A stretch of DNA of 64,000 nucleotides, from assembly GCF_030678875.1 (NCBI RefSeq), contig NZ_JAUUDS010000011.1, forward strand, positions 1-64,000, read 5' to 3'. Made by a program: the position numbers and the translations under genes. The notes under the pieces were generated by a model. That model saw nothing but the letters and a program-made list of their open reading frames with translations, ran no database searches and was not told the DNA's origin. Source of the stretch: Sphingomonas aurea (GTDB lineage Bacteria; Pseudomonadota; Alphaproteobacteria; Sphingomonadales; Sphingomonadaceae). Below are positions 2,761 to 44,754 of the stretch, in pieces. Positions within the stretch are counted from its first letter, which is position 1. Each line of letters opens with the position of its first letter.

Positions 2761-5313
2761 TCAGAAGCGGTAGCGGATCGAGCCCGTCACCGTCCGGCCA
2801 TAGAGCGCGGTGTTGTTGAACACCGCCGAGGTCGACGACAGGATCGGGTTCAGGCTGCCGCCGCCACGGAAACCGAGCTTATCGAACAGGTTGTTGACGT
2901 TCAGCCCCAGCTCGACCCGGTCGACAGGGCGGAATTTCAGGAAGCCGCTGACGAAGGTCGACCCCTTGGCGGTGTAGAGGTTGAAGTCGTCGAGCGGCGT
3001 GCTGGTCTGCCCCGTGAAGCTCAGGCCGCCCGCGAACAGGCCGGCGTCGTAGGACGGGGACACCGAGAACAGCAGCTCCGGCTGGCCACCCGGCCGATTG
3101 CCGACCAGCGCCGCCGTGGCGCTGTCGGTGATCTTCGACTTGATGAACGTCCCGTCCGCGGCCAGGCGGAAATTGCCCAGGTTGAAGCGGCCGGTGAACT
3201 CGATGCCGTACGAGCGATAGCTGTTCGAGATGTTCGGGTCGTTGTTCGGCGCCGGGTTGTTGATGCGGGTGAAGTCGTAATTATTCTCGGTCAGGGTCGA
3301 GCGGAAGCCGGTGATCTCCGCCGTGTACGACCCGCCGAGCAGGTCACCGCGCTGCTTCAGGCCGACTTCCTGCTGGTTCAGATAGTTGATCGACACGCCG
3401 CGCCCGTTCTGGGTCAGCGAGCCGTCGGCGTTGAAATTGCCCGACAGCACCAGGCGGTCGGCGTTGAAGCGGCCGCCGCGGCTGACCCGGGCGAACACGC
3501 TGGTCGAGTTGGTGAAGGCATAGAGCGCACCCGCCGACCAGCTGACATAGTTGCGGCGATAGTCGATATTCTCGACCGTGCTGCTCGGCACCAGCGACGG
3601 CAGCAGGGCAGAACCGAGCGCGTCCGACACGCGGAAGAGCGGGCCGGTCTGGCCGCCCTGCGCAGTGCCCTCACCCTTCACGCTGTCCCAGCGGACGCTG
3701 GCGTCCAGCTCCAGCCCGCCACCCGAATAGTTGAACGAGCCGAACGCCGCATCGTCGGTGTATTTCAGGTCGACGGTGCGCTGGCAGCAGGTGCCCCAAT
3801 TGTCGTTGAAGCCCGCCTGTCCCGCCGCGGTCAGCTGGTTGCCGGTCGGCGAGAACAGGTCGAGCGGCGCGGCATTCTCGCCGTTCAGCTCGCTATACTG
3901 GCGGTTGACGTGCCAGTCCTGCTGGATGTTCTGGCTCATGTGGAACCAGCCGGCGATCGCGCGCAGCGTGCCCGCACCGACGTCGAACTTCTTGGTCAGC
4001 TGCAGGTTGTTCACGAAATTGCCCATGTCGGTCATGCGCGTGTTGATGTTGGGATTATTGTTCACATAAGTGCCGGTGTAGAGCTGCCCCAGCTTCGGCC
4101 CCGCGGCGTAGCGGATCGACCCCACGGTGCTGCCGTTGACCGACGAGCCGAGCAGGCTGGCGGTGGTCTGCACGTTGATGAACTGGGTGGTGAAGTTGCC
4201 CTTCATATCAGTGTAGCGGATCGAGTCGTCGACGGTGAAGCCGCTGTCGAAGTCATAGTGCAGCTGCGCACCGATGGACGTGACGCGCGGGTGAATGCCC
4301 TCCACCTCGGCATTCTCGATCTGGCCGCCATTGGTCAGATACTGGAAGCTGCGATTGTAGATCGAGTAGCTCGATCCGTCGCGTCCGTCGAAGGTCGGCA
4401 GCGGGCTGAACCCGACGACCTTGTTGCCGTCGAGTTTGGCCAGAGACGGCGTGGTGGTGTTGGTCGGCGCCTGCTCGTCCAGCCGCTTGAACAGGATGCG
4501 GATGAAGCCCTTGTTGTCGGCGAAGTCCTTGGTGACGTTACCCTTGATCTGGTAGCCGCGCAGGATGTTCCAGTTCTCGTTGGTCAGGCCGCCGCCGTTG
4601 CGGGCATAGCCGCCAACGTGGAAGCGCAGGCTGTCGCTGATCGGCGCGCCGTAATCGAAATCGACGCGGTGCTCGCGATATCCCAGGCCATTCGAGTACG
4701 CGACCGAGCCGCCCGCGCGATCGCCGGTCTTGCTGATATAGTTGACGACCGCGCCCGGCGCCTGGCTGGTCGCGGTGGAGGCGGAGCCGCCGCGCACCGC
4801 CTCGACCCGCTCGACATTCTGGTCGAAGCGCAGCCAGTAATCGTTGTTGCCGAAGTTCATGTCACCGAACAGCGTGACGGGCAGGCCGTCCTCCTGCAGC
4901 GCGACATATTCCGAACCGCCTGTCGACACCGGGATACCACGCACGCCGATATTGGCGTTACCGCCCGGGCCGGCGGTGTCCGACGGCTGGAGGCCGGGGA
5001 TCGAGCGCAGCACCTCCGCCTCCGAACGCGGCGTGAAGTTCTGGATCGATTCGTTGCTGACCTGGCTGACCGAGATCGAGCTGCGGAAACGCGAACGCTC
5101 GCCGGTGGTGGCGGTGACGACGATGTCCTCGCTCTGCGCCGCCGCATCGGGCACCGCGCCGGGGTCGGTCGCCGGGTTCGGCGCGCCAGGGGCGGTGGTG
5201 GCGGGCGTCGTCGCCTGCGACGGGCTTGCATCCTGCGCCGCGGCGGGAATTGCCCAGCAAGCGGCGGCGAGGGCCAGTATCGAGGTGCAGGAATAGCGAT
5301 CGGCGCGCATCAT
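2761..5313 (-). CDS. TonB-dependent outer-membrane receptor next to a tryptophan halogenase gene
   Basis: The product is 850 residues. It has a signal peptide ending AIPAAAQD, a Pro/Ala/Thr-rich spacer, a TonB-box-like segment (EDIVVTATTG), a plug domain (IGVRGIPVSTGGSEYVALQ) and a beta-barrel ending in the aromatic C-terminus SIRYRF. TonB/ExbBD energises import of the ligand into the periplasm. The start is the first of two adjacent ATGs, with AGGAGAGG 8 bases upstream; a longer in-frame reading has no such site. The flavin-dependent halogenase gene lies immediately upstream on the same strand. Receptors with this partner in Caulobacterales, Xanthomonadales and sphingomonads usually belong to carbohydrate-uptake loci under LacI control, and the paired operators at 5384-5416 fit that. 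The substrate is unknown. Confidence 0.92.
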   Translation of the reverse strand: MMRADRYSCTSILALAAACWAIPAAAQDASPSQATTPATTAPGAPNPATDPGAVPDAAAQSEDIVVTATTGERSRFRSSISVSQVSNESIQNFTPRSEAEVLRSIPGLQPSDTAGPGGNANIGVRGIPVSTGGSEYVALQEDGLPVTLFGDMNFGNNDYWLRFDQNVERVEAVRGGSASTATSQAPGAVVNYISKTGDRAGGSVAYSNGLGYREHRVDFDYGAPISDSLRFHVGGYARNGGGLTNENWNILRGYQIKGNVTKDFADNKGFIRILFKRLDEQAPTNTTTPSLAKLDGNKVVGFSPLPTFDGRDGSSYSIYNRSFQYLTNGGQIENAEVEGIHPRVTSIGAQLHYDFDSGFTVDDSIRYTDMKGNFTTQFINVQTTASLLGSSVNGSTVGSIRYAAGPKLGQLYTGTYVNNNPNINTRMTDMGNFVNNLQLTKKFDVGAGTLRAIAGWFHMSQNIQQDWHVNRQYSELNGENAAPLDLFSPTGNQLTAAGQAGFNDNWGTCCQRTVDLKYTDDAAFGSFNYSGGGLELDASVRWDSVKGEGTAQGGQTGPLFRVSDALGSALLPSLVPSSTVENIDYRRNYVSWSAGALYAFTNSTSVFARVSRGGRFNADRLVLSGNFNADGSLTQNGRGVSINYLNQQEVGLKQRGDLLGGSYTAEITGFRSTLTENNYDFTRINNPAPNNDPNISNSYRSYGIEFTGRFNLGNFRLAADGTFIKSKITDSATAALVGNRPGGQPELLFSVSPSYDAGLFAGGLSFTGQTSTPLDDFNLYTAKGSTFVSGFLKFRPVDRVELGLNVNNLFDKLGFRGGGSLNPILSSTSAVFNNTALYGRTVTGSIRYRF

Positions 5314-5438: not shown

Positions 5439-6956
5439 TCAGGCGGTGCCGATCAGGCGGCCGATGGTGTCGGCGTGGCGCGGCATCGTGTCGGCGACGC
5501 GCGCGATCGTCGCGGCGAGCCGCTCGACATAGGCGGTGCTCTGGCCTGCGTCGCTGGCATAGCCGAGCAGCGGATCGACACCGCGCGGCCAATTGAGCTG
5601 GCCGATATGCACCGCCAGCCAGCTCGCCGCGCCGAACAGGTCCATATCGCGCGCGATCAGCCGGCCACCGTCCTGGAAATGCGCGATCTTCAGCGCCAGC
5701 GTGTCGGGAATCGCCATCGCCGCGCAGTCGCGCCACAGCGGCGAATCGGCGCGCGCGGTCAGCTTGTAGTGAAGGATCAAAAAGTCGCGGATCCGCTCGA
5801 ACTCGGTGATCGCGATCCGGTTATACTCGTCGATCACCAGCGGGTCGAAGGCGCGGGTGGGGAACAGCGCGAGCAGCTTGGCGATGCCCGCCTGGATCAG
5901 GTGGATACTGGTCGATTCCAGCGGCTCCATGAACCCGCTCGCCAGCCCGATCGCGATCACGTTGCGATGCCAGAACAGGTTGCGCCGCCCGGTGACGAAG
6001 CGCAGCGGGCGCGGATCGCCGAGCGGCTCGCCGTCGAGGTTCGCGAGCAGCGTCGCCGCCGCCTCGTCGTCGCTGACATGCCGGCTGGCATAGACATAGC
6101 CGTTGCCCGTGCGGTGCTGGAGCGGGATGCGCCACTGCCACCCCGCGGCGCGCGCGGTCGATCGGGTATAGGGCAGCGGATCGCCGTCCTGCATGGAGGG
6201 CACCGCCAGCGCGCGGTCGCAGGGCAGCCAGTGGGTCCAGTCCTGATAACCGGTGTGCAGCGCCCCCTCGATCAGCAGCCCGCGAAACCCCGAACAGTCG
6301 ACGAACAGCTCGGCGGCCAGCACCCGCCCGTCGGCCAGGGTGACGCCTGCGACGCGTCCGCTCTCGCCATCGAGCGCGACATGCGCCACCCGTCCCTCGG
6401 TCCGCACCACGCCCCGCGCCTCGGCATAGCGGCGCAGGAATGCGGCGTAGAGCCCGGCATCGAAGTGATAGGCATAGTCGAAGGTCGAGCCGACGTTGCG
6501 CGGATCGCCGAGTGGCTGGGCAAAGCGCCCGCGGCTGGCGGCGCCCCACGCCATCGACAGGTCATCGAGCGGGATCTCGCATCCCGCCGCCCGCGCCGCC
6601 AGCCAGTGCTGGTGGACCGCGAGCATGTCGAACGGCTTCCCGAACGTGCCGAAGGGGTGGAAATAGCGGTGGCCGAGCTGCGCCCAGTCGACGAATTCGA
6701 TTCCCAGCTTGAAGCTGCCCTTGGTCTCGCGGACGAAATTCGCCTCGGCGATGCCCAGCGTGTCGTTGAACAGGCGGATAGGCGGGATCGTCGCCTCGCC
6801 CACGCCGACGGTGCCGATCTCTTCCGATTCGACCAGCTCGATCCGGCAGCCGCGCGGCAGCGCATGGGCGAGCGCCGCGGCAGTCATCCAGCCCGCCGTG
6901 CCGCCGCCGACGATCAGGATAGACCGGATCGCATCGTCTGCCTTGTCGTCCATCAT
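5439..6956 (-). CDS. Flavin-dependent tryptophan-halogenase family protein
   Basis: The product is 505 residues, normal for the family. It has the FAD-binding GGGTAGW (residues 17-23), the flavin motif VGEATIPP (52-59), the WxWxIP halogenase signature as WQWRIP (273-278) and an EPLEST motif (344-349). By family alignment, Lys83 in GSFKLG and Glu347 correspond to the catalytic Lys79 and Glu346 of PrnA, so the chemistry could be intact. A separate reductase would have to supply FADH2; none is seen nearby. The gene precedes a TonB receptor on the same strand and has a LacI-type operator in its own promoter. No biosynthetic cluster surrounds it, so the substrate may be something other than free tryptophan. 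The start is the first of two ATGs, after a GGGGGAGGG site. Confidence 0.9.
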
Positions 6957-31185: not shown

Positions 31186-33381
31186 CTAGAAATCCACCGT
31201 CACTGACGCCTTGTAGGTACGCGGCAAACCCTGGAGCAGCGCCTGGTTGAAGCTGTCGAACGACGATGCCCAGTAACGCTTGTTGCCGACATTATCGACA
31301 TTGACGCGCAGCGTGACCGGCGTCTCGGCGACCGAGGCGACGAAGCGCGCACCGACGTCGAAGCGGGTCCAGGCTGGGATCTCCAGCGTGTTCGCCACAT
31401 TCACCTGCTGCTCCCCGGTATAGACGACGCGACCGGTCAGCGTCAGTCCGCGCAGGAACGGCAGGTCCCACTCGGCATTGGCATTGGCGAGCCACGCGGG
31501 CACGCCGGGTGCGCGATTGCCCTCGGTCGCAGGGTCGATCGTATCGCGCAGCCGCGCGTCGATGTACGAGCCGCCGGCGATCAGCCGCAGCCCGCGCGTC
31601 AGCTCGCCGTCGACCGACAGCTCGACGCCGCGGTGGCGCTGCTCGCCGAAGAAGCCGAAGCGGACGAAGCCGGGGGCGGCAGCGTCGGCGGAGACCTGCC
31701 CGATCGGCCGCGCGGTGCTGAACACCGAGATGCTGGCGTTGAACCGCCCGACCGCCAGCTTGCCACCCGCCTCGTACTGGACGGAGCGATAGGGGCTCAG
31801 CGTCTCACTCGCGTTGATGACCGGCAGGGTCGCGCCCGTCGTCGGGTCGAAGCCGGTCGTCGGCGCGACCGGCCCCTGTGCCAGGCTCTCGATACGATTG
31901 GCGAACAGCGACACGCCATCGACCGGCTTCACCACCAGCCCGGCGACAGGCGTCACCGCGTCCTTCGAATAGCCCGACGACAGGCTGCCGTCCGCATAGG
32001 AGTAGCTGCGATAGGACAGGGTCTGGAGCCGCAGCCCGCCCGTCACCAGCACCCGGTCGCCAGCGATGCCGATCGTGTCCGACGCGAACATGCTGCCCAG
32101 CCGGCTGCGCGCGATCGGGAAGGGATCGTCCAGATCACCGCCGACCAGCGTCGACGACGGCAGCGCCACCTGCGGCGTCGCATAGAGGTTGGTCGCGAAC
32201 CCCGCAAAGCCCGGGCCGTAGCGGAAGTCATAGGCGTTGCGGTTCACCTGCCAGCTGCGGTTGCCGCCGACGTTGAACTCGTGGGTGATGCCACCCGCCG
32301 CCAGCTTCACCCGCACGCCGGCCTGCACCGCCTCGTTATTGTCGGTGCGCGGCACGTAAAGTGCGTTCCCGGTGCCGGCGCCGGTCGCCGCATCGGTGAC
32401 GGTGATCCCGCCATAGATGCCGTCCTCCGACCCGTCGCGCGCGCCCGCCATGGCGTAGAACAGCGCATTCGGGGCAAGATCATATTCCAGCCGCGCCGTG
32501 CCGAACACGTCGCGTAAGGTCGAATAGGTGAAGTCCTGCGCATAATTGGCCTTGGCGTCGGGCACGCGCGGGATCGCGGTGGAGGCGATCGTCACCTTGG
32601 GCCGCAGCCGGTCGACGCGCACCTTCTGATAGGCACCATCGAGCATCAGCCGCAGGTTGCCGCCGTCATAGTCGATCGCGCCGCCCGCCACGGCGGTGCG
32701 CCGGAACTCGCCGTCGACCGCCACGTCACCGGCGCGGTAAGCCCCATTCAGCCGTACCCCGACCGCGCCGTCGGCGAAGCGCCGCGCGACGTCGACCGCG
32801 CCGCCGAAATGCCCGTCGGCGGTGTAGTTTGCGGTCGCGCGGGTCAGCGGCTTCGCCCCGGCGCGCTTGGGGATCAGGTTGACGCTGCCGCCGATGCCGG
32901 TGCCGCCGGGCGCCGCGCCGTTCAGGAACGCGCTCGCCCCGTTCAGCACCTGCACCTGGTCGTAGAGTTCGGGTGCGACCAGCTGGCGCGGGGTAATGCC
33001 GTAGAGGCCGTCCATGCCGATATCGTCGCTGAACAGCGGAAAGCCGCGGATCACGAACAGCTCGGCGGCATTGCCGAAGCCATAGGTGGTGCGGACGGCC
33101 GGGTCGTTCTCCAGCAGCTGGCCCAGCGTCTGCGGCTGCTGGTTCAGGATCAGCGTGCTGTCATAGCTGCGGATGTTGAACGGAACGTCGGACGCGGGCT
33201 TGTCGCCGAGGATGCCCAACTGACCGCCGCGGATCACCTGCGTCTGGTTCTGCGCCTGCGCGGTCACGACGATGTCGTCGCTCGCCGGCTCGGCCGGGCG
33301 GTCCTGCGCCATCGCCGGCATGGCGGTAGTCATCGCGGCGATTGCCGCCAGCGATGCGGTGCCGAACAGTCTCAACGTCAT
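31186..33381 (-). CDS. TonB-dependent siderophore receptor
   Basis: The product is 731 residues. A signal peptide ends MPAMAQD, then comes TonB-box-like DDIVVTAQAQ, a plug of the siderophore-receptor type (DVPFNIRSYDSTLI, ELFVIRGFPLFSDDIGMDG), and a barrel ending TYKASVTVDF with terminal Phe. The plug sequence VRTTYGFGNAAELFVIRGFP is characteristic of the TIGR01783 receptors. It imports a ferric siderophore or similar complex. The ATG at 33381 has AAAGGGGA close upstream. It is 16 bp after the small membrane gene and in an operon with a PepSY protein, a common iron-uptake arrangement. Confidence 0.92.
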   Translation of the reverse strand: MTLRLFGTASLAAIAAMTTAMPAMAQDRPAEPASDDIVVTAQAQNQTQVIRGGQLGILGDKPASDVPFNIRSYDSTLILNQQPQTLGQLLENDPAVRTTYGFGNAAELFVIRGFPLFSDDIGMDGLYGITPRQLVAPELYDQVQVLNGASAFLNGAAPGGTGIGGSVNLIPKRAGAKPLTRATANYTADGHFGGAVDVARRFADGAVGVRLNGAYRAGDVAVDGEFRRTAVAGGAIDYDGGNLRLMLDGAYQKVRVDRLRPKVTIASTAIPRVPDAKANYAQDFTYSTLRDVFGTARLEYDLAPNALFYAMAGARDGSEDGIYGGITVTDAATGAGTGNALYVPRTDNNEAVQAGVRVKLAAGGITHEFNVGGNRSWQVNRNAYDFRYGPGFAGFATNLYATPQVALPSSTLVGGDLDDPFPIARSRLGSMFASDTIGIAGDRVLVTGGLRLQTLSYRSYSYADGSLSSGYSKDAVTPVAGLVVKPVDGVSLFANRIESLAQGPVAPTTGFDPTTGATLPVINASETLSPYRSVQYEAGGKLAVGRFNASISVFSTARPIGQVSADAAAPGFVRFGFFGEQRHRGVELSVDGELTRGLRLIAGGSYIDARLRDTIDPATEGNRAPGVPAWLANANAEWDLPFLRGLTLTGRVVYTGEQQVNVANTLEIPAWTRFDVGARFVASVAETPVTLRVNVDNVGNKRYWASSFDSFNQALLQGLPRTYKASVTVDF

Positions 33382-37603: not shown

Positions 37604-38947
37604 ATGGACACGATCGACCTGCTCGTCCGGGAGGCGATGCTGTTTGCGGCAGTCGGCCTGCTGGTCGGCGGCATCGACGATCTGGCGGTGGACCTGCTCT
37701 ACTGGCTGCGGCGGATCTGGCGATGCCGCCGGCCCGCGGCGACGGTGGCCGGACTGCCCGTACCCGGCCGCCCAGGCCGACTGTTCGTGTTCGTGCCCGC
37801 CTGGGACGAGGAGCCGGTGATCGCCGCGATGCTCGCGACCGCCCTCGCCCGCTACGACCATCCCGATTTCGCCATCCATGTCGGGCTCTATCCGAATGAC
37901 GCGGCGACGATCGCGGCGGCCCGCACCGTGGCCGATCGCGACCGCCGCGTCCGGCTGGTCATCGGCCCCCGCCCCGGCCCGACGACCAAGGCCGACTGCC
38001 TGAACAGCCTGTGGCGCGACCTGATGTCGCTCGACCGGCCCGCGAAGGCCGTGATCCTCCACGATGCCGAGGACGTGGTCCATCCCGACGAGCTGCGCGT
38101 CTTCGACTCGCTGATCGAGCGGCATGGCGTCGTGCAATTGCCGGTGCTGCCGCTGATCGCACCCGGCTCGATCGTGGGTGCGCACTATGCCGACGATTTC
38201 GCGCAGGCGCATGCCAATCACCTCGCCGTCCGCACCGCGCTGGGCGCAGGCATGCCGCTGGCGGGCACCGGCTGCGCGATCGCCGTCGAGACGCTGGCGG
38301 GGCTGGCAGCGGGCAATGGCGGCGACCCGTTCGACCCCGACAGCCTGGTCGAGGACTATGAACTCGGGCTGCGCATCGCCGCGCTCGGGCATGGTGCGAT
38401 CTTCGCGCGGCTGCTCGACGCCGATGGCGAGATCGTCGCGGTGCGCGCCTATTTCCCCGACACGCTGGCGGCGGCCGTGAAGCAGAAGGCACGCTGGATC
38501 ACCGGCATCGCGCTTGCCGGTTGGGACCGGACCGGCTGGGGACGCCCGCTCGCCATCATGGAACACTGGTGGCGTGCGCGGGACCGGCGCACGCCGCTCG
38601 CCATGCTGCTGCTGCTCGTCGCCTATCTGGCCGTTCCCGCCTGGCTGGCGAGCGCGGTCGGCCACTGGTGGACCGGCACGCCGGTCGCGCCGCTGCCGCC
38701 GCTGCTGCGCACGCTGCTCGCGATCAACGCCGGGCTGCTGGCGTGGCGTATAGCGATGCGGGCGATCTTCACCGCCCAGGCTTATGGCTGGCGGCAGGGC
38801 TTCTGGTCGGTGCCGCGACTGTTGGTGGGCAATCTCGTCGCGATGCTCGCGGCGGCGCGAGCGATCCGCCGCTATGTCGCGATGATGCGCGGCCGGCCGC
38901 TCGCCTGGGAGAAGACCGCGCATGTCTTCCCGGACGCGCCCGCGTGA
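37604..38947 (+). CDS. Family 2 glycosyltransferase, NfrB-like, membrane bound
   Basis: The product is 447 residues. A membrane segment near the N-terminus (MLFAAVGLLVGGIDDLAVDL) is followed by a GT2 catalytic domain. Visible motifs are VFVPAWDEEPVI, the nucleotide-sugar site HDAEDVVHPDE, catalytic EDYELGLRI and QKARW of Q/RxxRW. At least two more membrane segments follow (PLAMLLLLVAYLAVPAWLA and LLRTLLAINAGLLA). It resembles the GT part of NfrB, the inner-membrane protein of the phage N4 receptor / NGR glycan pathway, but lacks NfrB's C-terminal c-di-GMP-binding region. It overlaps the next gene by 4 bp (GTGA), whose product resembles the end of NfrA. Confidence 0.86.
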   Translation: MDTIDLLVREAMLFAAVGLLVGGIDDLAVDLLYWLRRIWRCRRPAATVAGLPVPGRPGRLFVFVPAWDEEPVIAAMLATALARYDHPDFAIHVGLYPNDAATIAAARTVADRDRRVRLVIGPRPGPTTKADCLNSLWRDLMSLDRPAKAVILHDAEDVVHPDELRVFDSLIERHGVVQLPVLPLIAPGSIVGAHYADDFAQAHANHLAVRTALGAGMPLAGTGCAIAVETLAGLAAGNGGDPFDPDSLVEDYELGLRIAALGHGAIFARLLDADGEIVAVRAYFPDTLAAAVKQKARWITGIALAGWDRTGWGRPLAIMEHWWRARDRRTPLAMLLLLVAYLAVPAWLASAVGHWWTGTPVAPLPPLLRTLLAINAGLLAWRIAMRAIFTAQAYGWRQGFWSVPRLLVGNLVAMLAAARAIRRYVAMMRGRPLAWEKTAHVFPDAPA

Positions 38948-39906
38948 CCGGCCGGCCGCTCCGCTTCCTGGGCCTGATCGTCATGGGCTGGAGCGGCGTG
39001 CGCGTCGCGATCCTGTGGCCGAGCGTCGACTCGGTGCCCGCGCTGATCCGCGCGATCGCACCGCCGGTCGCTGCCGCCACGGCCTTCTATGCCGAGGCGC
39101 CTGTGACCCGACCTGTCGTGGCCCATGCGCCGACAGCCGCGACACCGACCAAGATCGTGCCGATCGCGTCCGCGATACCAACGCCTGCGACGACGTCGCC
39201 TCCGACGCCCGCCGCTCGGCCGGCAGAGCCTGATCTCCCGCGGTCGCTGCGCCTGCCGTCCCTCTCGCCGACCAGCAAGCCGGGTCGCTGGTCGGCCAGC
39301 CTCTGGGCGATCGGCCGCACCGGGCTGGCCGAGACGCGGCCCGGCAATCAGCTCGGCGGCTCGCAGGCCGGCATCCGCCTGCGCTACACGTTCGACCGCA
39401 CGCACCGGCTCGCGGCATCGGCGCGATTCGCAACGGCGCTCGACGGCGGCGCGCGAGAGGCGGCGTTCGGGCTCGACTGGCAACCGACCGCCGCCCCGGT
39501 CCACCTGCTGGTCGAGCAGCGCGTCGCCCTGAATGGAGGCCGCGGCGGGCCGGCGGCGCTGGTGGTAGCCGGCCTCGACCCGCACCCGCTGCCGCTCGGA
39601 CTGACAGCGGAAGCCTATGCGCAGGCCGGTGCTGTCGTTCGTGGCCGGCTGGACGGATTCGCGGACGGCGCGGTTCGCGTGACACGGCCTGTCACCACTG
39701 CCGGCGGCCTGCGGCTCGACCTCGGCATCGGTGGCTGGGCGGGTGCGCAGCGCGGCGCTGCCCGCGTCGACATCGGCCCAACCGCCTCGCTTGGTGTGCC
39801 AATGCACGGTCGCGTGATCCGCCTGACGCTCGATTGGCGACAGCGGATCGCGGGCGACGCGCGGCCCGGCTCTGGTCCCGCCCTGACCCTTGGCACCGAC
39901 CTGTAG
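38944..39906 (+). CDS. NfrA C-terminal-domain-like protein
   Basis: The product is 320 residues. It starts with an N-terminal hydrophobic helix (FLGLIVMGWSGVRVAIL), then a Pro/Ala/Thr-rich linker of about 50 residues, then a beta-rich domain (GRWSASLWAIGRTG, LGGSQAGIRLRYTF, GLTAEAYAQAGAV, RVDIGPTASLGVP, GSGPALTLGTDL). The last block matches the NfrA C-terminal domain as I know it. E. coli NfrA is a much larger outer-membrane protein with an additional TPR part, which is absent here. It is coupled to the NfrB-like transferase by a GTGA overlap (GTG start). The pair probably makes and exports a surface glycan. Confidence 0.75.
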   Translation: MTGRPLRFLGLIVMGWSGVRVAILWPSVDSVPALIRAIAPPVAAATAFYAEAPVTRPVVAHAPTAATPTKIVPIASAIPTPATTSPPTPAARPAEPDLPRSLRLPSLSPTSKPGRWSASLWAIGRTGLAETRPGNQLGGSQAGIRLRYTFDRTHRLAASARFATALDGGAREAAFGLDWQPTAAPVHLLVEQRVALNGGRGGPAALVVAGLDPHPLPLGLTAEAYAQAGAVVRGRLDGFADGAVRVTRPVTTAGGLRLDLGIGGWAGAQRGAARVDIGPTASLGVPMHGRVIRLTLDWRQRIAGDARPGSGPALTLGTDL

Positions 39907-40007: not shown

Positions 40008-40042
40008 CGGCCCGGCGGCGCGATCCGCCGGGCCGCCTTTTT
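40008..40042 (+). terminator. Rho-independent terminator after the Nfr-like pair
   Basis: A perfect 11-bp stem (CGGCCCGGCGG / CCGCCGGGCCG) with loop CGCGAT is followed by CCTTTTTG. It ends the two-gene transcript. Confidence 0.85.
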
Positions 40043-40090: not shown

Positions 40091-41005
40091 GTGGATCTCT
40101 ACCTTCCGGTCGCGAACCTGTCGGTCAACGCCCTGGTGATCGTGCTGCTCGGCGGCGGGGTCGGCCTGTTGTCGGGCATGTTCGGGGTCGGCGGCGGGTT
40201 CCTGACCACGCCGCTGCTGATCGTCTACGGCATCCCCCCCACTGTCGCCGCCGCCTCCTCGGCCAGCCAGGTCACCGGTGCCAGCGTGTCGGGCGTCTTC
40301 GCGCATGTCCGCCGCGGCGGGGTCGATTTCAAGATGGGCGGGGTGCTGGTCGCGGGCGGCGTGCTGGGCACCTTTGCCGGCGCGTGGATCTTCAAGCTGC
40401 TCCAGGCGCTCGGCCAGATCGATACGGTGATCGCGATCGTCTATGTCGTGATGCTCGGCTCGATCGGCGGGCTGATGGCGCGCGAGGCGCTGTCGGCGAT
40501 CGTCCGCAGCCGCCGGGGCCACGCGCCGCGCGCGGCGAAGCGCCGCCATCACCCGCTGGTCGCGGCGCTGCCGTTCCGCACCCGGTTCTACGCCTCGGGC
40601 CTCTACATCTCGCCGCTGGCGCCGCTGCTGCTGGGCTTCGTGACCGGTGTGCTGACCATCCTGCTGGGCATCGGCGGCGGGTTCATCCTGGTGCCGGCGA
40701 TGATCTACCTGATCGGCATGGCGACCGGCGTGGTGGTCGGGACCAGCCTGTTCCAGACGCTGTTCGTCACCGCCGTCGCGACGATGGTCCATGCGACGAC
40801 GACGCACGCGGTCGACATCGTGCTTGCCGGGCTGCTGCTGGTCGGCTCGGTCACCGGCGCGCAGATCGGCGCGCGGCTGGCGAACCGCATCCGCCCCGAA
40901 TATCTTCGCCTCGCGCTGGCGCTGATGGTGCTGGCAGTCGGGGTGCGGATCCTGCTGGGGCTCGTGTGGCGGCCCGAGGAGATCTTCTCGGTAACGCTGT
41001 CGTGA
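40091..41005 (+). CDS. TauE/SafE family sulfite exporter-like membrane protein
   Basis: The product is 304 residues with about eight hydrophobic segments. The Gly-rich repeats at the start of each half are characteristic (GVGLLSGMFGVGGGFLTTPL and VTGVLTILLGIGGGFILVPA). Family members move sulfite, sulfonates or organosulfur anions. GTG start at 40091 with AGGAGAGCGGG. Coupled (GTGA overlap) to the TIGR02186 gene, a standard alphaproteobacterial pair. Confidence 0.9.
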   Translation: MDLYLPVANLSVNALVIVLLGGGVGLLSGMFGVGGGFLTTPLLIVYGIPPTVAAASSASQVTGASVSGVFAHVRRGGVDFKMGGVLVAGGVLGTFAGAWIFKLLQALGQIDTVIAIVYVVMLGSIGGLMAREALSAIVRSRRGHAPRAAKRRHHPLVAALPFRTRFYASGLYISPLAPLLLGFVTGVLTILLGIGGGFILVPAMIYLIGMATGVVVGTSLFQTLFVTAVATMVHATTTHAVDIVLAGLLLVGSVTGAQIGARLANRIRPEYLRLALALMVLAVGVRILLGLVWRPEEIFSVTLS

Positions 41006-41766
41006 GGGCGCGTGCCGCCCTGCTCGTCGTCGCCGCGCCGCTGGCGATGGGGCAGGCAAAGCCGGTGCTGGTGCCCGACGTGTCGCAGCGGGCAATCGAT
41101 ATCGCCTACAGCTTCACGGGCGCCGACCTGCTGCTGTTCGGCGCGATCCTCTATCCCGGCGGCCGCGTGCCCGTGGGCGAGAAGCCGGCCGACATCGTCG
41201 TCGTCGTGAAGGGCCCGACCCAGTCGATCCTGCTGCGCGAGAAGGAAAAGGTCGCCGGCATCTGGGTCAACGCCGCCAGCGCCCGCTATCGCTCCGCTCC
41301 CTCCTTCTACGCCATCGCCTCGTCGCGGCCGATCGCCGACATCGTCGACGATCGCGCACGCGCGATCTACGAATTGGGCCTCGACAGCCTGCAGCTCTCG
41401 CCCGTCTCGACCGCCGCGCCGGATGTGCAGCAGCGCTTCGGACGCGGGCTCGTCGACCTGAAGAGCCGCGCCGGGCTCTATCTGGAGAACCCGCGTGCGG
41501 TGGAGATCACCGACAGCGTCCTCTACCGCGCCCGTGTCACCATCCCGGCGCGCGTCCCGGTAGGGCGCTTCACCGCCGAGACCTTCCTGATCCGCGACGG
41601 CCGTGTGCTGGCGGCGGCGGTGCGCGACATCGACATCCGCAAGTCGGGTTTCGAGCGGTTCGTCGCGCGGGCCGCGGAACGGGCGGGACTGCTCTACGGC
41701 GCGGTCGCGGTGGTCCTGTCGGTGGGGCTGGGATGGATCGCCGGCGCGGTCGCACGGCGTTTCTAA
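41002..41766 (+). CDS. TIGR02186 family protein (Alph_Pro_TM, PF09608)
   Basis: The product is 254 residues. An N-terminal signal-like stretch (AALLVVAAPLAMG) precedes a beta-rich periplasmic domain (LVPDVSQRAIDIAYSFTGAD, DIVVVVKGPTQS, GIWVNAASARYRSAPSFYAI) and a C-terminal membrane segment (LLYGAVAVVLSVGLGWIAGA). It is almost always next to TauE/SafE, so it probably partners with the exporter. Its function is unknown. GTG start overlaps the stop of the exporter. Confidence 0.85.
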   Translation: MRARAALLVVAAPLAMGQAKPVLVPDVSQRAIDIAYSFTGADLLLFGAILYPGGRVPVGEKPADIVVVVKGPTQSILLREKEKVAGIWVNAASARYRSAPSFYAIASSRPIADIVDDRARAIYELGLDSLQLSPVSTAAPDVQQRFGRGLVDLKSRAGLYLENPRAVEITDSVLYRARVTIPARVPVGRFTAETFLIRDGRVLAAAVRDIDIRKSGFERFVARAAERAGLLYGAVAVVLSVGLGWIAGAVARRF

Positions 41767-41832
41767 GTCCACGCTTAATTTACCGATGCCGCGCTAGGCC
41801 GTTCTCGAAACAAGAGAAAGCAGCGCCGCGCG

Positions 41833-43479
41833 ATGAGCCAGATGTTCGGATCGGAAGCGTTCGCCGGCGCCACGCCGCTGACGACCCACGCGGCGATCGG
41901 CTGCGTGCTGGCGATTGCCGGCTCGTCGAGCCGCGTGCTGCTCGACCGGGCCGCCATCGCGGCAATCGCCGACGATCCTGATACGGTCGCGGCGGCGGCA
42001 GGACAGGTCGGCAGCCAGGTCAAGATGCGGATCGGCAGCACCTGGCTTGTCGCCAACATTCGCGCCCTGAAACTGGAGGATGCCGCCGGCACGCTGGTCG
42101 CCGCCGACATCGATTTTCTGGGCGAGGGTGAGGAGGAACGGCTGACCGGCAAGCTCTACAGCTTCCGGCGCGGCGTCACCCGCTATCCGATGCCGGGATG
42201 CGAGATCTATCCGGTGACCACCGCCGACCTGCGCCAGGTCTATTCGGCCACCGACCGACCGCACATCCAGATCGGCAACGTCTATCCGACCGCCGACGTC
42301 CGCGCCGCGCTTCAGGTCGACGCGCTGCTGGGCAAGCATTTCGCACTGGTCGGTTCGACCGGTACGGGCAAGTCGACCGCTGCTGCGCTGATCCTGCATC
42401 GCATCTGCGATCTGGCGCCGCAGGGCCATATCGTCATGATCGATCCGCACGGCGAATATGCCGCTGCCTTCCGCGGCAACGGCGCGATCTACGATGTCGG
42501 CAATCTGCAGATGCCGTACTGGCTGATGAACTTCGAAGAGCATTGCGAGGTGTTCCTCACGGGCGCTGGGTCGCAGCGCCAGGTCGATGCCGACATCCTC
42601 GCCAAGTGCCTGCTCGCCGCCAAGTCCAAGGGGCGGTTGGGCCAGGAGATCGGCAAGCTGACCGTCGACGCGCCGGTCCCCTATCTGCTGTCCGACCTGA
42701 CCGGCATCATCACGACCGAGATGGGCAAGCTCGACCGTGCCGGCGACACCGCCCCCTATCTGCGGCTGAAGACCAAGATCGACGAGATCAAGTCCGACCC
42801 GCGCTACGGCTTCATGTTCTCCGGCATGCTCGTCGCTGATACGATGGCCGATTTTCTCGCCCGCATCTTCCGCATGGGTGGCGATGGCAAGCCGATCTCG
42901 ATCGTCGACGTGTCTGGTGTGCCGTCGGACATCACCGCGGTCGTCGTCGCGGTGCTGAGCCGCATGACGTTCGACTTCGCGATCTGGGCACGCAATGAGC
43001 CCCAGCGCCCGATCCTGCTCGTCTGCGAGGAGGCGCACCGCTACATCCCCGCCGGGCGCGAGACGGACAATGCGGTCGGCCGCGTGCTCGGCCGGATCGC
43101 GAAGGAAGGGCGCAAATACGGCGTTTCGCTCGGCCTCGTGACCCAGCGGCCGTCGGATCTGGCAGAGGGCGTGCTGTCGCAGTGCGGCACGATCATCGCG
43201 ATGCGGCTGAACAACGATCGCGACCAGGCCTTCGTCAAGGCGGCGATGCCCGAGGGTGCGCGCGGCTTCCTCGATTCGATCCCGGCACTGCGTAACCGCG
43301 AGTGCATCATCTGCGGCGAGGGCGTGTCGATCCCGATCCGTGTGGCGTTCGACGCGCTGGAGGAGAATCGCCGCCCCGCGTCGGACGATCCGCTGTTCTC
43401 GCAACTGTGGAGGGAAACGGGCGGAGAGGACGGGATCCTGGAGCGAACGATCAAGCGCTGGCGTGCGCAGGGCCGCTAA
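41833..43479 (+). CDS. HerA/DUF87 family ATPase
   Basis: The product is 548 residues. A beta-barrel HAS-like N-domain precedes the HerA ATPase core with Walker A GSTGTGKST, DPHGEYA, Walker B LLVCEEAHRYIP, and the sensor-like GLVTQRPSDL with LSQCGTIIAMRLNN. HerA proteins are hexameric DNA translocases, usually with the nuclease NurA in archaea; in bacteria some partner with Sir2 or other nucleases in phage defence. No such partner is adjacent, so a housekeeping DNA-processing role is as likely. It is a single-gene unit after a 66-bp gap. Confidence 0.88.
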   Translation: MSQMFGSEAFAGATPLTTHAAIGCVLAIAGSSSRVLLDRAAIAAIADDPDTVAAAAGQVGSQVKMRIGSTWLVANIRALKLEDAAGTLVAADIDFLGEGEEERLTGKLYSFRRGVTRYPMPGCEIYPVTTADLRQVYSATDRPHIQIGNVYPTADVRAALQVDALLGKHFALVGSTGTGKSTAAALILHRICDLAPQGHIVMIDPHGEYAAAFRGNGAIYDVGNLQMPYWLMNFEEHCEVFLTGAGSQRQVDADILAKCLLAAKSKGRLGQEIGKLTVDAPVPYLLSDLTGIITTEMGKLDRAGDTAPYLRLKTKIDEIKSDPRYGFMFSGMLVADTMADFLARIFRMGGDGKPISIVDVSGVPSDITAVVVAVLSRMTFDFAIWARNEPQRPILLVCEEAHRYIPAGRETDNAVGRVLGRIAKEGRKYGVSLGLVTQRPSDLAEGVLSQCGTIIAMRLNNDRDQAFVKAAMPEGARGFLDSIPALRNRECIICGEGVSIPIRVAFDALEENRRPASDDPLFSQLWRETGGEDGILERTIKRWRAQGR

Positions 43480-43581: not shown

Positions 43582-44313
43582 TCAGGCGAACACGGCCTTG
43601 CTGCTGCGACGGCGGTAGCGCGCCGCACCGGCGACCATGCCGAAGCCGAGGAACATCATCGCCCAGGTCGCCGGCTCAGGGACGGCGGCGGTGAAGGAGA
43701 CGTTGTCGAACTCGAACGCGCTGTTGCCGCCCGTGTTGTAGAACTTGATGCCGCTGAACAGCGTACCAGCGGTGGCGTTGAAGGTCACGAAACGGCTGCC
43801 GGCCTGCGTCCCGTCACCCGGATAGGCCGGAGCGACATCGTTGTTCAACTGCGTGCCGGAAAAGCTGCGGATGAATGCGCCGGTCTGGTCGAACAGGTCG
43901 ATCGAGTTGTACGCGTCGATCGAACCGATGAATACGCTGATGCTCGAGAAGTTGGTGCCGGTAGCCGACGACAGCTTCAGCGACCCGTCGCCACCGATCG
44001 CGAAGAACCCGTTACCGTCATACGGCGCCGGCGTGTAGACGTTGAAGTTGCCCGAACCGTTGCCGTTGGCCTGACCCGAACCGACAACGTCGCTGCGCGT
44101 CGCCGAGCCCGACAGGTTCGCAACGAGGCCCTTCGACGTTGCTTCGCCCGCGGTGCCGATGCTCGGGGTGTTGAACGTCATGTTGGCAGTCGCACCGGCG
44201 ACGCCGGTGTTGTTCGCGCTGGTGCCAGCGACCGAGGTGAACGCGACGCCTGCGAAAGCCGGCGTGGCGAGAACGGCAGCGCCGAAGGCGAGAGCGGCGG
44301 AAATCTTGCGCAT
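43582..44313 (-). CDS. PEPxxWA-CTERM sorting-domain protein
   Basis: The product is 243 residues. A signal peptide (KISAALAFGAAVLATPAFAG) precedes a Gly/Ser/Asn/Thr-rich beta-type exported domain and a C-terminal sorting tripartite signal: VPEPATWAMM, a hydrophobic stretch LGFGMVAGAA and basic RYRRR. The signal is cut by an exosortase-type enzyme and couples the protein to the surface or extracellular polysaccharide. No exosortase gene is in the window. The body has no catalytic signature. The ATG at 44313 is chosen; the upstream in-frame extension is not signal-like. A 441-bp AT-richer region lies upstream. Confidence 0.9.
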   Translation of the reverse strand: MRKISAALAFGAAVLATPAFAGVAFTSVAGTSANNTGVAGATANMTFNTPSIGTAGEATSKGLVANLSGSATRSDVVGSGQANGNGSGNFNVYTPAPYDGNGFFAIGGDGSLKLSSATGTNFSSISVFIGSIDAYNSIDLFDQTGAFIRSFSGTQLNNDVAPAYPGDGTQAGSRFVTFNATAGTLFSGIKFYNTGGNSAFEFDNVSFTAAVPEPATWAMMFLGFGMVAGAARYRRRSSKAVFA

Positions 44314-44754
44314 GGTATAAACCCCCAAATCAAAATTGGTTTTTGAACAACGCCCCACCCGGAGCAAAATGAAACCGTCTGGACCGTTGGCGCCTAATAG
44401 GCAGATCCGGCGAGTTCCGGGACATGGAAATCGATCCAATTTTGGGACAGGACCTCGAACACGCATCCCGAAGTCGTATTTTCACGGAACGTGCAGGCAC
44501 TTAGTCAGTCCATGATATTCCGACAATTATCCATCGGACTGCTTTTTCGCGTGAACCGACGCGTTTTATTTACAATATTCTTGCTGAAATGTGCTGAATT
44601 CATGGAAGTCAGAGTCGCCGCACGGGACGCGCGGCGTCGACTCGACCCCCGGGTCATCTCCGGTTCAGCGAAATCGGGGAATCATTGCTGTCGTGCGCCC
44701 GGCACATGAAGTCGGGCAGGCGGCATCCGCCCGCCCGATCAGCCGGCTGATCGA
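44314..44754. other. 441-bp AT-richer gap upstream of the PEP-CTERM gene
   Basis: This stretch is visibly less GC-rich than its surroundings and holds no convincing gene. It contains CAAAATTGG (44331-44339) and its inverse CCAATTTTG (44436-44444), about 96 bp apart and close to the PEP-CTERM start. It must hold the promoter of that gene. I see no clear sigma-54 motif. Confidence 0.5.

Follow-up and report, generated by a model that had tools for sequence, protein, structure and literature searches.

A tail-less NfrB-type glycosyltransferase and a predicted small outer-membrane barrel protein form a gene pair typical of the Sphingomonadaceae

The window, that is, the whole stretch of DNA analyzed here, comprises 64,000 nucleotides of Sphingomonas aurea (contig NZ_JAUUDS010000011.1 of assembly GCF_030678875.1, positions 1 to 64,000 of the forward strand). 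It carries two overlapping genes, coding for a glycosyltransferase (GT) and a partner protein, which are listed here with their features and neighbors.

37604-38947, plus strand: processive-type GT2 glycosyltransferase, ATG start, 447 aa, a counterpart of just the N-terminal portion of NfrB, without the MshEN tail
38063-38074 and 38483-38497, plus strand: DAED and QKARW motifs, respectively, within the GT
38944-39906, plus strand: partner, a predicted small outer-membrane barrel protein, GTG start, 320 aa
38944-39021, plus strand: partner residues 1-26, conserved N-terminal hydrophobic helix with the motif (G)RPLRF..W...R....WP
39022-39288, plus strand: partner residues ~27-115, Pro/Ala-rich linker of variable sequence
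39289-39903, plus strand: partner residues 116-320, predicted 12-stranded outer-membrane barrel, likely a homolog of the NfrA barrel
40008-40035, plus strand: terminator-like hairpin 3' of the pair, 11 GC pairs followed by a T run
40091-41005, plus strand: TauE/SafE family permease (PF01925), syntenic neighbor, putative part of the system
41011-41766, plus strand: TIGR02186/Alph_Pro_TM protein (PF09608), syntenic neighbor, putative part of the system, approximate start
40091-43479: the TauE/SafE permease and the TIGR02186/Alph_Pro_TM protein together with a HerA-type ATPase

The stop of the GT gene and the start of the partner gene share 4 nt (GTGA). The start at 38521 that a list of open reading frames gives for the partner is a mechanical one, and homologs support the GTG at 38944. 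From this start, the partner shows a single hydrophobic segment near the N-terminus (residues 6 to 24), a central part rich in Pro and Ala, and beta structure towards the C-terminus. These features agree with the original prediction, which was made from the letters of the sequence and described a GTGA-coupled pair of a GT2 transferase with DAED, ED, and QKARW motifs and a protein with a hydrophobic N-terminal helix, a Pro-rich linker, and a beta-rich end.

The GT motifs were located at residues 63 (FVPAWDE), 154 (DAED), 249 (VEDYE), and 294 (QKARW). The protein matched PF13641 in Pfam at 5.3e-35 and the NCBIfam model NF011307 at 509.6 bits, above the curated cut-off of 431, and is thus a member of that family (PRK14716.1-5, glycosyl transferase family protein), the name of which leaves the specific function unstated and does not mention a partner. 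Its kinship to NfrB, as had been predicted, is borne out by 36% identity to NfrB of Escherichia coli MG1655 in BLASTP (459 alignment columns, reaching residue 478 of 745) and by its match to the NfrB model NF008411 (303.5 bits), although this score is far under the curated cut-off of 1170. VEDYE of the GT aligns with TEDYD of NfrB, and the DxD, (T)ED, and QxxRW motifs of the GT2 core of NfrB are all present. Among the sequences of solved structures in the PDB, one chance-level match was all that the GT returned. In E. coli, NfrB and NfrA constitute a glycan synthase and its pore, which form the receptor system of phage N4 (available text of PMC8669469 and PMC8669472). The window resembles that system in gene order and in the overlap, with the partner directly behind the NfrB-type GT.

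Unlike E. coli NfrB, the window GT is devoid of the regulatory tail: it ends 149 aa past QxxRW versus 415 aa in the E. coli protein, and MshEN was absent from it in the Pfam search, in keeping with the earlier claim that the c-di-GMP-binding tail is missing. Searching the whole genome for MshEN yielded a single match at an E value of 0.36 and none over the cut-off. The available text of PMC8669469 and PMC8669472 places the MshEN domain in the C-terminal part of NfrB, and the former reports it in 1,705 of 1,841 NfrB homologs, so that tail-less homologs had already been seen in that work. All 76 GT frames that we compared carry DxED and QxxRW, with 13 of them outside a narrow pattern for the ED motif. 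The tail past QxxRW measures 140 to 178 aa in 62 GTs of the family and 172 to 422 aa in eight distinct GTs from outside it. Three of the loci (L147, L148, and L154, in genomes G553 and G652) code for an NfrB-type GT with 421 aa past QxxRW followed by a frame of ~200 aa, which is TPR-like by eye and in which no barrel was seen.

Both genes are widespread. Of 201 genomes of the genus (the window's own included), 187 carry the GT and 187 the partner, and the 14 without the GT are also the 14 without the partner. Among 59 GT loci, 57 have the partner behind the GT and in the same orientation, and the remaining two hold less than 170 nt past the GT; the distance from the GT stop to the first matched partner residue is -3 to 33 nt in 55 of the 57, with odd values of -660 and 519. 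Given these frequencies, the pair is not a chance juxtaposition. Across 249 genomes of the family, NF011307 (E <= 1e-20) was detected in 227, in 205 of them over the cut-off, and the partner profile (E <= 0.01) in 218. Comparison of the two lists gave 215 genomes with both, 12 with the GT only, 3 with the partner only, and 19 with neither (Fisher p 1.4e-17, a value that treats genomes as independent and ignores their kinship). Two of the 12 GT-only genomes were inspected: in one the partner is cut by a contig end, and in the other (L212 in G720), whose GT scores over the family cut-off, no barrel gene was recognized in the stretch behind the GT. In a draw of 240 genomes from the class, the partner profile matched 3, all within the Sphingomonadaceae, and the GT occurred in 10, of which 3 belong to the family; a search of plasmids for the barrel returned 1 record. 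The pair is therefore typical of the whole family, a point that the original prediction had missed, and this wide occurrence, in the majority of the genus and family genomes, sets it apart from E. coli NfrB/NfrA. It can also be lost: in Sphingomonas sp. Leaf339 (L004:7001-7612), the GT frame is broken after ~202 residues of homology and runs into unrelated sequence, and the partner, TauE, and HerA are all absent within 7 kb.

The partner was characterized by structure prediction. A model of the entire partner was of poor quality (pLDDT 51.6). The barrel part was therefore modeled separately, and for the C-terminal 217 residues of the partner, four sequences yielded 12 strands with a pLDDT of 70.5 and a pTM of 0.63. 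All 15 Foldseek matches with E values up to 0.001 were outer-membrane barrels, including NanC, VhGalP, and 4y25, an entry titled polysaccharide outer membrane secretin, which we take to be PgaA; with VIA-align, BrkA and KdgM came out on top at Z 14.3. Of 56 homologs, 52 end in F and 4 in L, and a terminal Phe is usual for outer-membrane proteins. A 12-stranded barrel was hence obtained where the original prediction had proposed to look for one, and a soluble partner, which would have been fatal to that prediction, was rejected in view of the predicted strands, the terminal Phe/Leu, and the barrels returned as structural matches. On this model, the partner would reside in the outer membrane and give passage to a glycan.

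KdgM/NanC porins and autotransporter beta-domains are 12-stranded, too, and the predicted fold of the partner resembles both; the likeness seen is one of predicted fold and not of sequence, and the gene context of the partner differs from theirs. These matches raise the alternative that the product of the GT is a short or lipid-linked glycan destined for another pathway, with the barrel passing oligosaccharides in the manner of KdgM/NanC and no polymer being exported. KdgM, NanC, and VhGalP are indeed among the best structural matches, but QxxRW and the kinship to NfrB point to a processive synthase, and the strict gene pairing also speaks against an oligosaccharide porin, which we regard as improbable. 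A GT2 synthase gene next to one for a predicted outer-membrane barrel recalls the arrangement of PgaA, BcsC, and other TPR-plus-barrel exopolysaccharide pores, from which the partner differs in lacking TPR, in its narrower barrel, and in having no profile kinship to 11 BcsC barrels. The NfrA barrel is described as 16-stranded in the available text of PMC8669472, so the partner barrel, with 12 predicted strands, would be narrower.

The relation of the partner to NfrA was examined at the sequence level. Searches of Pfam (E up to 1), of NCBIfam, and of the sequences in the PDB gave no match to the partner. PF13283 (NfrA_C), the model of the NfrA C-terminal domain with which a search had been suggested, matched neither the partner nor anything else in the genome. 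With no Pfam match, TPR went undetected in the partner, as had been claimed for the missing TPR part of NfrA, and the same search does find TPRs in three bridging NfrA-type proteins, which combine them with NfrA_C at 25.6, 84.5, and 86.9 bits versus a cut-off of 25. A first profile-profile attempt, comparing 8 NfrA C-termini with 28 sequences of the genus, gave a probability of 0.4. The successful comparison employed a more diverse partner set (58 rows, one of them, L095, a scrap of 5 residues; 56 used) and NfrA-type proteins of other alphaproteobacteria.

Homology to NfrA, the lack of which had been named as fatal to the original prediction, was indicated at a probability of 92 (score 54.7 over 206 columns to the C-terminus) between the partner barrel profile and 14 NfrA-type barrels; the probability was 17 (score 31.7) upon removal of L149 from the NfrA-type set and 1.3 (score 22.0) when that set was limited to PF13283-positive rows. 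As controls, 11 BcsC barrels, reversed NfrA, and TonB receptors scored 16.8, 14.6, and 16.3, respectively, all at probabilities below 1%, and the best of 30 column shuffles reached 17.9. Four alphaproteobacterial proteins alone gave a score of 45.0 and a probability of 81, and a comparison to which E. coli NfrA was added, its sequence being used without the last residues, gave 42.4 and 71. On these profile data, the partner barrel is likely homologous to the NfrA barrel, a result that depends on intermediates; the predicted likeness to NfrA thus holds by profile-profile comparison through intermediates and fails in the plain PF13283 search. Kinship to BcsC or to TonB receptors was rejected on these scores. 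The partner remains unlike E. coli NfrA, as far as the available text on that protein goes, in its lack of TPR, its 12 predicted strands versus 16, and an N-terminus that differs from the NfrA signal peptide. One intermediate arrangement was found in another family of the class (G589, L149:2728-7580), where a short GT is followed by a partner of ~1100 aa with TPR and an NfrA_C domain just over the cut-off. Here, the GT has no long tail while its partner retains TPR and NfrA_C, indicating that the tail and the TPR part can be lost separately.

The same data bear on a second alternative, in which the barrel is a small autotransporter- or adhesin-like protein with a surface-exposed Pro/Ala segment and the GT modifies the barrel protein or some other acceptor. 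BrkA, EspP, and Hbp, whose 12-stranded beta-domains are among the closest structural matches, also have a C-terminal barrel behind an N-terminal part. However, 12-stranded barrels match one another regardless of function, and the profile kinship of the partner is to NfrA barrels and not to those of BcsC or TonB receptors. Moreover, the linker is of low complexity, with a mean pairwise identity of 0.22, and the GT groups with NfrB, the product of which is argued to be an exopolysaccharide in the available text of PMC8669469. We therefore hold an autotransporter-like role to be quite unlikely.

We consider it reasonably probable that the pair is a minimal, family-specific NfrB/NfrA glycan synthase-pore system, in which the synthase lacks the c-di-GMP tail and the barrel serves as the exit pore. 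In such a system, the GT2 enzyme would act at the inner membrane, building a sugar polymer from a nucleotide sugar and passing it into the periplasm, as its family and motifs suggest; for NfrB, UDP-ManNAc is the substrate proposed in the available text of PMC8669469. The 12-stranded barrel, if folded as predicted, would let the polymer cross the outer membrane, and the pore is perhaps tethered to the inner membrane. With neither an MshEN tail nor a TPR scaffold, activity would probably be set by expression or substrate supply and not by c-di-GMP binding to the synthase, a control that is unlikely here because the binding region is wanting. Export, the identity of the glycan, and a phage-receptor role are inferred for the pair, and the function put forward in the original prediction, a simplified surface-glycan exporter, is reasonable to infer. 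Should the pair indeed export a glycan, it manages here with neither the TPR scaffold nor the c-di-GMP tail, and such a stripped-down NfrBA would be a tool for asking which parts synthase-dependent export needs.

Whether the partner begins with an ordinary signal peptide is a separate question within the synthase-pore model. Outer-membrane barrels typically begin with a cleaved signal, and E. coli NfrA has a usual-looking one. By that precedent, the N-terminus would be removed, and the partner would be a small, untethered porin whose sole link to the synthase is co-expression. The homologs, however, show strong conservation in this region: all 56 aligned sequences, from 16 genera, have W16 and R20, while 54 retain P5, 53 F8, and 51 R7, and the helix codons vary synonymously among the 28 rows of the genus. 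These 56 were the best-scoring matches of their searches (the best 30 loci of each), so the set leans to well-conserved members. They derive from 30 genus loci (L036-L065, the window's included), less L055 with an internal stop and L063 with an unlike end, and from 30 further loci (L079-L108), less L080, whose match lacks the N-terminus, and L095. Eight partners beyond the 56 (L161, L162, L164, L166, L167, L168, L210, and L213) all have the W and, four residues on, the R. The RF pair is kept in four of these, two with one extra residue between P and R, and lost in L164, L166, L168, and L213, indicating that the RPLRF part of the motif is less general than W and R. The N-terminal comparison of outside partners does not extend to L158, L159, and L165, and the segment compared for L163 stops short of the R.

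Mean pairwise identity over the 56 rows was 0.47 in the helix, 0.49 in the barrel, and 0.22 in the linker, and over 29 mostly more distant rows it was 0.41, 0.47, and 0.21, respectively. The helix is therefore nearly as conserved as the barrel, in contrast to the neighboring TIGR02186 protein used as a control (13 rows), for which the values were 0.36 in the signal-like segment versus 0.62 elsewhere. A strict AxA/VxA site past the hydrophobic core was present in 21 of 56 partners versus 24 of 24 scoreable TonB receptors of the genome (24 of 30 loci were scoreable, one start, that of L182, being plainly wrong), and a loose cleavage-like site occurred in 51 of 56 partners; these are simple pattern tests and not SignalP. 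A Tat signal was dismissed by eye, the twin Arg being absent. As judged from these tests, the N-terminus seems unlike an ordinary signal peptide and appears to be a conserved, unusual element, which the original prediction had missed. The loose site and the precedent of NfrA nevertheless leave a cleaved signal a serious candidate, to which we would give somewhat less than an even chance in view of the rare strict site, the invariant W16 and R20, and the conservation of the helix.

Together, these results suggest that the helix is kept in the mature protein as an inner-membrane anchor. The linker is 103 residues long on average (s.d. 8, range 89 to 121), with 19.5% Pro and 19.1% Ala, and by residue length ~100 extended residues could span the periplasm. 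We tentatively propose, as a rather doubtful extension of the synthase-pore model, that the partner is a single-chain trans-envelope protein with an uncleaved inner-membrane helix by the synthase, a Pro/Ala tether, and an outer-membrane barrel. Such a protein would physically leash the exit pore to the synthase, standing in for the TPR scaffold found in NfrA, PgaA, and BcsC. To our knowledge, no outer-membrane barrel has been described that is held to the inner membrane through its own N-terminal end. If the helix is such an anchor, it would represent a new way of coupling a synthase to an outer-membrane pore.

The helix is not part of the annotated protein in the single annotated record that we opened, Sphingomonas parapaucimobilis NZ_CP155751.1 (L210), where the pair precedes genes for TauE, TIGR02186, and an ATP-binding protein. 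In the partner frame at L210:5647-6624, the annotated start (5980) falls inside the linker and omits the helix; extending the open frame back to an ATG at 5647, at the overlap with the GT stop, brings in the same RPLRF helix. The helix would be easily missed if this choice of start recurs in other records. Most of the examined genomes of the genus and family keep the pair, but its labels in this record are 'glycosyl transferase family protein' and 'hypothetical protein'. As far as the available text of the literature on NfrB-type proteins, N4 adsorption, or MshEN in Sphingomonas goes, nothing was found on this pair, which appears to be unstudied so far.

Of 17 loci compared, 14 have genes for TauE, TIGR02186, and HerA behind the pair in a conserved order; these genes were absent from the 7.4 and 2.4 kb behind the barrel in L156 and L165, respectively, and L004, with its broken GT, has neither the barrel gene nor any of the three. 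As a terminator-like hairpin lies between the barrel and TauE in the window, these neighbors were not counted as parts of the pair; terminator-like sites in the stretch number 3 versus 0.8 expected. Between the window and L001 (Sphingomonas sp. BT553), TauE is 91% identical while the barrel is 50% identical, indicating that the barrel evolves fast. Elsewhere in the window, a PEP-CTERM protein (PF07589) is encoded at 43582-44466 on the minus strand, and the PEP-CTERM sorting signal is linked to exopolysaccharide loci. The plug domain of TonB receptors has 51 matches in the genome, two of which lie in the window at 4747-5082 and 32899-33195, both on the minus strand.
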